Origin: Enterobacteriaceae endosymbiont of Donacia dentata
GTDB lineage: Bacteria; Pseudomonadota; Gammaproteobacteria; Enterobacterales; Enterobacteriaceae
Direction of reading: 5' to 3'
Assembly (NCBI RefSeq): GCF_012570745.1
Contig: NZ_CP046212.1
Span: forward strand, 188,118-252,117
Length of the DNA: 64,000 bases
Every line of letters starts with the position of its first letter. The first letter of the stretch is position 1. Of this stretch, positions 9,831 through 13,228 are shown piece after piece. A program made the translations under genes and the position numbers. The notes under the pieces are model-generated. The model was not told where the DNA came from and ran no database searches. It saw only the letters and a program-made list of their open reading frames with translations.

Positions 9831-10610
9831 ATGAAAAAATTTTTGATTATTGCAAACTGGAAATTAAATGGAAATTTTAATTTTATAAAAAAAAATATAA
9901 ATATAATAAAAGAAAAAATAGGTAATTCATTATATTTTTGTAAATTAGCAATAGCTCCACCATATGTATATATAAATTATATATTTAATTATTTAAAAAA
10001 TACATCAGTAGACCTCGTAGCACAAAATGTAGATATTCATAAAATTGGTTCTTTTACTGGTGAAATATCTATAGATATGTTAAAAGATGTAGGTGTAAAA
10101 TATGTAATAATTGGTCATTCAGAAAGAAGAATAAATCATTATGAAAATAATAATTTTATAGCTAAAAAATTTGTCTTAACAAAAAAAAATGGATTAATTC
10201 CGATTTTATGTCTTGGAGAAACAAAAGAAGAAAAAAATGAAAATAAAACAGAAAAAATTTGTATTGATCAAATTAATTCTATATTAAAAATATGTGATGT
10301 TAAAATATTTCATAATACTATTATAGCTTATGAACCTATTTGGGCTATTGGTTCTGGTAAAATTGCAGATGTATATGAAATACAAAAAACTATTAATTTT
10401 ATTAAAAAATATCTTTCATCTATAAATCAAAAAATATCCGATAACATCATCTTTCAATATGGTGGTTCTATTGATAAGAATAATATTCATGATTTATTTC
10501 AAATAAACAATATTGATGGTTTATTAGTAGGAAAAGCTTCTTTAACAATAGAAAATTTTATATTTTTAGTTAAAAAAGCTGAAAAAGAAATAAATTTATT
10601 GAGGTCTTAA
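9831..10610 (+). CDS. tpiA: Triosephosphate isomerase
   Basis: 259 residues against 255 in E. coli. It interconverts dihydroxyacetone phosphate and glyceraldehyde 3-phosphate in glycolysis. Catalytic residues are all visible: the N-terminal ANWKLNGN with Lys11, His96 in IIGHSERR, and Glu168 in AYEPIWAIGSGK. The phosphate-gripping YGGSI lies near the C-terminus. The ATG follows AAGGAAAAT. The last 15 bases overlap the 3' end of convergent lysS, leaving no room for a terminator outside coding sequence. Confidence 0.97.
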   Translation: MKKFLIIANWKLNGNFNFIKKNINIIKEKIGNSLYFCKLAIAPPYVYINYIFNYLKNTSVDLVAQNVDIHKIGSFTGEISIDMLKDVGVKYVIIGHSERRINHYENNNFIAKKFVLTKKNGLIPILCLGETKEEKNENKTEKICIDQINSILKICDVKIFHNTIIAYEPIWAIGSGKIADVYEIQKTINFIKKYLSSINQKISDNIIFQYGGSIDKNNIHDLFQINNIDGLLVGKASLTIENFIFLVKKAEKEINLLRS

Positions 10611-12113
10611 CATAGGAAATAAAATTATATCTCTTATAGATTTAGAATTAGTAAATAACATAACTAATCTATCAATTCCTAATCCTAAACCTGCAGTAGG
10701 AGGTAAACCATATTCTAACGCTTCTATATAATCTTGATCATAAAAATTTTCATAAATATTATTTTTTTTAGTATTATTAATTTCTTTTAAATTATCTTGT
10801 TGTTTAAATCTTTTTTTTTGTTCTTCTGGATCATTTAATTCAGAAAAACCATTTGCTATTTCCATTCCACAAATAAAAAATTCAAATCTATCAGTAATTA
10901 AAGGATTTAAATCATTACTTCTTGATAAAGGAGATATTTCAACAGGATATTCTGTAATAAAAGTTGGTTCTATAATTTTATTAGCAATTTTTACATCAAA
11001 AATTTCGGAAATAATTTTACCTTTACTCCATTTTTTATTTATTTTAACATTTAATGAATTACTAATTTTTATTAAAATATTAATATCTTCTAAATTATCT
11101 AAAGAAAAATTTGGATAAAAAAAGATAATAGATTCTTTCATTGTTAATATATTAAATTTATTATTTAAATTAAAAACAATACCATTGTATTCTAATACAG
11201 AATTATTAAATATTGATTTATATATTTTTTTAAATAAATTTTCAAATAAAATCATTAAATCTTTATAATCAGAATATGCTACATACATTTCCATCATTGT
11301 AAATTCAGGATTATGTTGAGTAGAAATACCTTCATTACGAAAATTTCTATTAATTTCAAAAATTTTATTAAAACCTCCAATAACAAGACGTTTTAAATAT
11401 AATTCAGGTGCTACACGTAAATACATATTTATGTTATATGTATTATGATGTGTTATAAAAGGTTTTGCTAAAGCTCCTCCAGGTATATTATGCATCATAG
11501 GAGTTTCGACTTCAATAAAATTCATTTCATTCATTAAATTACGAATATTTAATATAATTTTAGATCTTATTTTAAATACATTACGTGTTTTTTCATTTAC
11601 AATTAAATCTAAATATCTTTTTCTGTATTTTATTTCTTTATTTTGTAACCCATGATATTTATCAGGTAATGGTCTAATTGCTTTTGTTAATAAATAAATT
11701 TTTGTACAAAAAATTGATAAAACATTAGTTTTAGTTTTAAAAATATTACCAATTATACCTATAATATCTCCAATATTATATTCTTTTAAAAATTTTTTAT
11801 ATTTTTCAACAGATATACTATTTTGAGATATATAAACTTGTATTTTTCCTGTATAATCTTGAATGTTAATAAAAGAAGCTTTACCCATAATTCTTAAATT
11901 TACTATACGTCCTGCAATACGAAATAATTTTTTATCTTTTAAAGAAAAATTTTTATTATTGAATTCTTGATATATATTATCACATGTAATATTAATTTTA
12001 AAATTATTAGGAAAAGCAATATTTTTTTTTCTTAATTTTGTTAATTTTTTATGTCGAAACTTTACTTCATTATTATTAATACTTTTATTTAAAAAATATT
12101 TATTTTCAGACAT
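10596..12113 (-). CDS. lysS: Lysyl-tRNA synthetase (class II)
   Basis: 505 residues, the same as E. coli LysS. It charges tRNA-Lys, whose demand is very high given the Lys-rich proteome. The N-terminal OB-fold anticodon-binding domain (about 60-170) includes RIMGKASFINIQDYTGKIQV. The catalytic core has motif 1 in MNEMNFIEVETPMMHNIPGG, motif 2 in FEINRNFRNEGISTQHNPEF and motif 3 in GLGLGIDRLVMLF. It lies 16 bases downstream of prfB, the conserved prfB-lysS operon. No residue I checked is missing. Confidence 0.97.
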   Translation of the reverse strand: MSENKYFLNKSINNNEVKFRHKKLTKLRKKNIAFPNNFKINITCDNIYQEFNNKNFSLKDKKLFRIAGRIVNLRIMGKASFINIQDYTGKIQVYISQNSISVEKYKKFLKEYNIGDIIGIIGNIFKTKTNVLSIFCTKIYLLTKAIRPLPDKYHGLQNKEIKYRKRYLDLIVNEKTRNVFKIRSKIILNIRNLMNEMNFIEVETPMMHNIPGGALAKPFITHHNTYNINMYLRVAPELYLKRLVIGGFNKIFEINRNFRNEGISTQHNPEFTMMEMYVAYSDYKDLMILFENLFKKIYKSIFNNSVLEYNGIVFNLNNKFNILTMKESIIFFYPNFSLDNLEDINILIKISNSLNVKINKKWSKGKIISEIFDVKIANKIIEPTFITEYPVEISPLSRSNDLNPLITDRFEFFICGMEIANGFSELNDPEEQKKRFKQQDNLKEINNTKKNNIYENFYDQDYIEALEYGLPPTAGLGLGIDRLVMLFTNSKSIRDIILFPMLRPQ

Positions 12114-12129
12114 AATAGAAATCCTATAT

Positions 12130-13228
12130 TTATAAACCTAATTTTAAACTAGCTTGAATAAATTTATCTATATTACCATTAAGTACAAAATTTACATCAT
12201 TAATTTCTATACCAGTTCTCATATCTTTTATTCTTGAATCATCTAATATATAAGAACGTATTTGATACCCCCAACTAATATTAAATTTCTGTTGTTCAAT
12301 TTTTTTTTGTTTTTTTTGTTTTATTTTATTTGTTAATTCATATAATTTAAATTTAATTTGTTTCATTGCTTGATTTTTATTTTGATGTTGTGATCTATTA
12401 CTTTGACATTGTGTAACTATTCCTGTAGGAATATGTGTAATACGTACTGCTGATTCTGTACGATTAATATGTTGTCCTCCAGCTCCAGAAGCTCTATAAA
12501 CATCGATACGCAAATCTTCTGTATTAAGAGATATACTATTTTCATTTTTAATATCTGGATAAATAAAAGTTGAAACAAAAGAAGTATGTCTTCTTCCGGA
12601 AGAACTAAAAGGACTTTTTCTAACTAAACGATGAATTCCACTTTCAGTACGTAACCATCCAAAAGCATAATTTCCAACAATATGTATTGTTGCTGATTTT
12701 ATTCCTATAACTTCTCCTGGTGTTTCATTAATTATTGTGGTTTTGAATTTTTTTTGTACAGCCCACTTTAAATACATTTTCATAATGATTTTTGCCCAAT
12801 CTTGAGATTCTATACCTCCTGATCCAGATTGAATATCTATAAAACAATTTTTGTTATCATTTTTTTTAATAAAAATTTTTTGTAATTCTAAATTATTTAT
12901 TTTATTTTGTAACTCAGCTAATATTTTTATAGATTCTTTTAATATTATTTTATCATTAGTATCAATAGCTAAATTTATCAATTCATTAATATCAATAATT
13001 TCTTGATTAATTGTATCTAAAGAAAATAACAAATTTTCTATATTTGATTTTTTTTTATTTAAATTAAGAATATAATTAATATTATTCCAAATATTAGGAT
13101 TTTGTAGTTTATTATTTATTTTTAATAATTTTTTTTTATATTTTATATAATTAAAGAAACCCCCTAATAAAAATATTTTTTTTTTTTATTTTTTTTAAAT
13201 TATTTTTTATTAAATAAATTTCTAACAT
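12130..13228 (-). CDS. prfB: Peptide chain release factor 2, with programmed +1 frameshift at a UAA codon
   Basis: RF2 releases peptides at UAA and UGA. The uninterrupted frame is only 12130-13032, but the gene starts at the ATG 13228-13226, behind AGGGAAATAAG. It encodes 25 residues ending IRGFL, then a stop as codon 26 (13153-13151), exactly where E. coli prfB has its UGA. The recoding signals are present: Shine-Dalgarno-like AGGGGG (13165-13160), three bases, then the slippery CTT. Slipping one base forward reads Asn-Tyr-Ile-Lys and joins the main frame, giving 365 residues, the E. coli length. The anticodon-like SPF (KSPFSSSG) and catalytic GGQ (GAGGQHINRTES) are intact. The oddity is that the stop is UAA, not UGA. 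Confidence 0.93.

Follow-up and report, generated by a model that had tools for sequence, protein, structure and literature searches.

Release factor 2 genes of reed-beetle symbionts carry UAA in place of UGA at a frameshift site that is probably in use

The window analysed here, a 64,000-nucleotide stretch of the chromosome of the Enterobacteriaceae endosymbiont of the reed beetle Donacia dentata (NZ_CP046212.1, positions 188,118 to 252,117), carries prfB, the gene of release factor 2 (RF2), on its minus strand. The RF2 frameshift is a textbook case of autoregulatory recoding, in which a UGA stop codon ties the loop to RF2. In the D. dentata symbiont, the site has UAA at this position. From sequence comparison, we consider it about 65% probable that prfB here retains a working programmed +1 frameshift in which UAA has replaced UGA as the sensor stop, so that the loop would sense RF1 and RF2 together.

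Structure of the prfB frameshift site

The zero frame of prfB (ORF1, 13154..13228; minus strand, as for all features of the window given below) consists of ATG and 24 further codons, 25 in total (MLEIYLIKNNLKKIKKKNIFIRGFL). Codons 22–23 form an internal Shine–Dalgarno (SD)-like AGGGGG (13160..13165), which is followed by the spacer codon TTT (13157..13159) and the shift codon CTT (13154..13156), predicted to hold the GAG tRNA-Leu in the P site and to slip to TTT. Directly after CTT stands TAA instead of TGA (13151..13153), and the next base is T (U in the mRNA, 13150..13150), where C is usual. The bulk of RF2, with its SPF and GGQ motifs, lies in the +1 frame (ORF2, 12130..13152; 340 codons plus a stop at 12132-12130), and a +1 shift gives a protein of 25 + 340 = 365 residues. 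We verified all letters of the site individually, and the classical layout with a UAA-U stop and a 365-residue RF2, as described in the original prediction, was confirmed letter by letter. The TIGR00020 (prfB) profile scores 430.9 bits in this genome against a cut-off of 370. The genome comprises 465,589 bases in two contigs, of which the chromosome accounts for 458,942, and has a GC content of 20%.

The features of an RF2 programmed +1 frameshift are thus present: a short ORF1 with the RF2 body in the +1 frame, an SD-like AGGRGG, a 3-base spacer, CUU preceding the stop, and a genome with a matching anti-SD and a CUU-reading tRNA. Both of the 16S ends found carry an intact tail, GGATCACCTCC, and a tRNA-Leu(GAG) gene is present. 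A tRNA-Leu(UAG) gene overlooked by ARAGORN lies between tRNA-Gln and tRNA-Met (G000:C1 298420-298530, minus strand). Because the sensor stop is UAA and not the RF2-only UGA, we do not class this gene as a classical RF2-only loop; the weak-context C after the stop is likewise replaced by U.

Conservation among reed-beetle symbionts

We read prfB 5′ ends from sequence in 24 genomes of the symbiont genus. UAA occupies the site in 17/17 readable Donacia and Neohaemonia symbionts, comprising 15 Donacia genomes, Neohaemonia and the D. piscatrix symbiont, in which the UAA sits just upstream of a run of Ns. All five Plateumaris symbionts have UGA. In both Macroplea symbionts the two frames are joined, and CGT AGT replaces AGG GGG. 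In a tree of RF2 with six outgroup rows, Plateumaris symbionts (90/92) split from the remaining symbionts (81/74), which fits a single UGA-to-UAA change.

The shift signals are retained in the 17 UAA genomes: the first SD codon is AGG in 17/17, the second is GGG in 15/17 (AGG in the other two), and the shift codon is CTT in 17/17. As controls, codon alignments of RF2 and LysS from the same genomes provide invariant columns for Arg (23), Gly (31) and Leu (34), none of which has AGG, GGG or CTT in at least 15 of the 17 genomes. Codon use in the D. dentata symbiont is strongly biased, as counted in 362 mechanically listed chromosome ORFs of at least 100 codons, which are not annotated genes: AGG provides 114 of the 3,619 Arg codons, while 222 of the 6,548 codons for Gly are GGG and 904 of the 12,959 for Leu are CTT. 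The in-frame pair AGG-GGG is absent from all 362 ORFs. Since the signals persist in the face of this extreme codon bias and have been lost in the symbionts with joined frames, the shift site is probably in use. An internal start behind the SD-like sequence was also considered and rejected; inspection of 16 UAA sequences by eye found no ATG, GTG or TTG in the first RF2-frame codons after AGGGGG or AGGAGG.

The Plateumaris pusilla symbiont (L004, G002:C1 226617-227666, minus strand) shows a further arrangement, in which the part of RF2 beyond the UGA is in the zero frame. This stems from an indel near a run of ten As (A10), ~13–24 nucleotides past the stop, and places an in-frame UGA within RF2. 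A review describes such a readthrough layout as unknown among RF2 genes (PMC5009743), and the arrangement may reflect readthrough, A-run slippage or an assembly error. Separately, ATP synthase is kept only by the Plateumaris symbionts and is gone in those of Donacia, Macroplea and Neohaemonia, according to Reis 2020 (PMC7289800); the lineages that left UGA at prfB are the same lineages that are without ATP synthase.

Termination factors

The original prediction offered weak RF1 activity as one possible reason for a UAA sensor. We found no support for this, since the GGQ motif and PxT loop (PET) are kept in 7/7 symbiont RF1s (four from UAA species, three from UGA species) and PrmC scores above its cut-off in 24/24 symbiont genomes, although motifs do not prove activity. 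Among the 362 D. dentata ORFs, 329 end in UAA, 17 in UAG and 16 in UGA; as UAG- and UGA-ending ORFs both remain, RF1 and RF2 are both probably still needed. Of the interpretation first proposed, the layout and the rarity of UAA hold and weak RF1 is not supported; the two other options, low constitutive RF2 production and sensing of RF1 plus RF2, are both compatible with the sequence.

No match to prfC (RF3) above cut-off was found in the 24 symbiont genomes; the best partial matches are open frames of 704–713 residues that look like EF-G. In Escherichia coli with the K-12 form of RF2, prfB frameshifting increases when RF3 is lost, and RF2 with Ala246 shares UAA with RF1 (PMC5373646). Residue 246 is Ala or Ser in all 17 symbiont RF2s read (17 of 23 rows; six rows in which LysS had been picked up were left out). 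Three of these 17, from D. proxima (L009), D. provostii (L018) and D. sparganii (L019), all UAA species, have NPF in place of the codon-reading motif SPF.

UAA in other reduced genomes and in a second clade

UGA was expected to be by far the usual codon at this site. A survey of the prfB motif in 8,164 genomes bears this out, with UGA in 98.6% and UAA in 1.4% (Prince 2025, PMC12421855; its Discussion gives >99% UGA). Within Enterobacteriaceae, we read prfB loci by script in reduced genomes, defined as ≤2.4 Mb. Of 135 loci (24 + 49 + 62), 83 had a site that could be counted, that is, C/T-TT before the stop and an ATG 22–31 codons upstream. Most of the 52 uncounted loci have joined frames, and some of the rest are ambiguous; also excluded were G143, with GUU UGA, and G268, which is site-like and failed the filter. 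Script matches in G022 and G247 were discarded as spurious, G002 entered the count manually, and G100, G124 and G390 gave no prfB match above cut-off. Small genomes outside the survey are G074, three of genus g78 (G220, G293 and G356) and three of g102 (G233, G305 and G365).

The 83 counted sites comprise 34 UAA, 49 UGA and no UAG; outside the reed-beetle symbiont genus, UAA accounts for 17 and UGA for 44. Among the 35 reduced-genome genera with a counted site, UAA occurs in 15 and UGA in 26, with both in six genera, which implies at least six changes between the stops. By contrast, UGA-C is found in 80/80 large-genome genera and UAA in 0/80 (one genome each, 80 of ~125 large genomes; positions at prfB were compared by eye). 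The difference between reduced and large genera (Fisher p = 1.4e-9) is descriptive, because sampling differed between the groups and genera are only partly independent of each other. A scan of 392 family genomes for the UAA pattern gave 16 matches, of which five lie elsewhere and 11 lie at prfB, the latter exclusively in reduced genomes.

None of the correlates of UAA that we considered within the reduced genomes was supported as a general rule. A stronger SD at UAA sites appeared over the 83 sites (p = 0.0006) and disappeared with genus means (p = 0.27 for 11 bases, 0.35 for 7 bases); in the mixed genera, the mean SD of UAA sites is clearly stronger in g1 and g127, near equal in g38, g39 and g110, and weaker in g101. 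A tie to low GC was not supported (genus means, fetched loci only, p = 0.23), and low use of UGA does not mark UAA-site genomes, with UGA shares of UGA+UAA gene ends of 0.038–0.302 in six of these and 0.000–0.256 in six UGA-site genomes.

Three individual sites stand out. G033 (genus g11) has no UGA in 56 sampled gene ends, and its prfB frameshift stop is still UGA. In G232 (g101, L248), UAA follows CTT and an SD is nearly absent, whereas UGA and weak SDs are found in the related G123 and G304. In G143 (g121, L103), GUU replaces CUU/UUU as the shift codon before UGA.

When 299 genomes of the phylum were scanned for the pattern, a second clade came up, genus g224 (family f40, in another class and, speculatively, a Magnetococcia-like group), with the site AGGGGG CAT CTT TAA C. 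The family holds 11 genomes of g224 and seven of g237, with readable prfB in 13/18. UAA is present in 8/8 readable g224 genomes and UGA in 5/5 of the sister genus g237. The g224 loci have 51–62% GC, so AT pressure is not the cause of UAA there, and the assemblies measure 2.1–4.6 Mb. The eight g224 genomes with readable prfB also contain a weaker match that is RF1-like.

Mechanism and alternative explanations

We propose that UGA gave way to UAA, in the simplest case a single time, in the stem lineage of the Donacia, Neohaemonia and Macroplea symbionts after their split from the Plateumaris symbionts, and that lineages retaining the frameshift also retained UAA. After reading CUU, a ribosome would wait at UAA, while pairing of AGGGGG with the 16S tail would help tRNA-Leu to slip to UUU, giving full-length RF2. 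RF1 and RF2 would both compete with the shift, and RF2 output would drop when either is plentiful. Because RF1 also reads UAA by its codon specificity, the loop would no longer answer to RF2 only. For a shift that competes with k1[RF1]+k2[RF2], the sensitivity to RF2 is multiplied by the share of UAA termination that RF2 carries out, with the remainder going to RF1, a result of algebra and not of data. Negative feedback by RF2 would thus be kept but diluted to that share, and RF1 would gain an indirect brake on RF2. Most likely, then, the loop still damps RF2 but also answers to RF1.

Several observations weigh against a working UAA sensor. An A11–A12 run, found in 12 of the 16 UAA species measured, offers another route to RF2, and the UAA side of the RF2 tree has only moderate support (81/74). 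UAAU, reportedly a strong stop in E. coli (Poole 1995), should lower frameshifting. UGA is also still the commoner stop across the reduced genera (26 versus 15), although UGA makes up at most about 30% of UGA+UAA gene ends in 13 genomes sampled. UAA therefore looks disfavoured at this site in general; UGA would be the preferred stop, and UAA an exception tolerated or used by a few lineages.

The alternative that survives best is a relic of drift, in which G-to-A pressure made UAA, the shift rate is unregulated and the signals are kept only for making RF2. We consider this unlikely, though it draws on the 20% GC of the genome and on the occurrence of UAA in reduced genera to the exclusion of the 80 large-genome genera. 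Exits from the frameshift also appear to be at hand: a single-base deletion provided an easy one in a Pseudomonas fluorescens evolution experiment (PMC13245932), and the Macroplea symbionts took one by joining the frames. AT pressure, however, does not explain the fixation of UAA in the GC-balanced g224, and neither gene-end UGA share nor locus GC separates UAA-site from UGA-site genomes. In addition, RF2 still competes biochemically at UAA, and some feedback is thus expected even from a site reached by drift.

RNA polymerase slippage is a poorer candidate. Here, transcripts one A short, arising on the A run upstream of the SD, would be read directly into RF2 and the UAA site would be minor. 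The A-rich leader of the D. dentata gene (13166..13200) contains an A12 run; with one A fewer, the RF2 frame would be open, as also in the other species with A11–A12 runs. A review cites A-run slippage for Buchnera and Blochmannia (PMC5009743). A conserved long run, as in genes that depend on poly(A) slippage, is nevertheless lacking: it is only A5–A8 in four of the 16 UAA species measured (Neohaemonia A5, D. vulgaris A6, D. cinerea A7 and D. fulgens A8), all of which have UAA and AGGGGG. Runs of at least 11 A occur in 74 of the 362 ORFs, so that the prfB run is not special, and slippage leaves the conserved AGGGGG and CTT unexplained.

We regard it as very improbable that UAA was favoured by selection because it terminates some nine-tenths of the genes, such that the sensor reports the relevant total termination capacity. 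The stop usage of the D. dentata ORFs and the stability of UAA in two unrelated clades agree with this, but the P. pusilla symbiont has similar stop use (113 UAA, 5 UGA and 6 UAG of 124) with UGA at the site, and G033 has retained UGA at prfB with no UGA gene ends among the 56 sampled. Finally, a sequencing or assembly error at 13151-13153, which the original prediction had allowed for, is refuted by the prfB 5′ regions of the relatives, UAA being present in 17/17 from symbiont genomes sequenced separately per host species by Illumina.

Beyond a working +1 frameshift with a changed sensor stop, a bolder interpretation is possible and we put it forward tentatively: the UAA site may have been rewired into a stable sensor that reports the total capacity for termination (RF1 + RF2), a second regulatory type of the RF2 loop reached independently in g224. 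If this were true, an RF1 shortage would raise RF2 synthesis and RF2 would buffer RF1, and UAA would not be merely a poorly tolerated error. Reed-beetle symbionts, in which about nine in ten genes end in UAA, would then have maintained such a sensor over tens of millions of years. Each of the two unrelated UAA-fixed clades stands next to a sister group with UGA, and reduced genomes show UAA repeatedly; Plateumaris and Donacia symbionts, and g237 and g224, thus form matched natural pairs for what the loop senses.

Comparison with known systems

The UAA variant of the prfB site is itself already known. Prince 2025 (PMC12421855) describes it as poorly tolerated and without fixation in clades. We found no prior report of its fixation in reed-beetle symbionts or g224, or of its recurrence in reduced genomes, in a search that left most subscription papers and the survey supplement uncovered. 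The D. dentata site shows the same substitution as that variant, CTTTAA for CTTTGA, with the SD, the spacing and the other signals retained. Unlike in that description, UAA is fixed here both in a second genus and in the reed-beetle symbiont clade, which counts at least 17 species-level genomes with UAA.

Compared with E. coli, prfB of the D. dentata symbiont agrees in its lysS neighbour (10596..12113, downstream of prfB and named from sequence order and family knowledge), the 25 codons of ORF1, AGGGGG, the 3-base spacer, CUU, the stop at codon 26, the +1 direction and the 365 residues of the product. It differs in having UAA-U instead of UGA-C, in a stop that RF1 can read, and in that RF3 was not found in the symbionts. 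The Plateumaris symbionts belong to the same genus-level clade and share the layout, with CUU before the stop in 5/5, but have UGA-U and the SDs AGGAGG (two genomes), AGGAGT (one) and AGGAAT (two). The g224 gene resembles that of the D. dentata symbiont in combining UAA with AGGGGG and CTT, and differs in the C after UAA, the spacer CAT, its GC-balanced loci and larger genomes.
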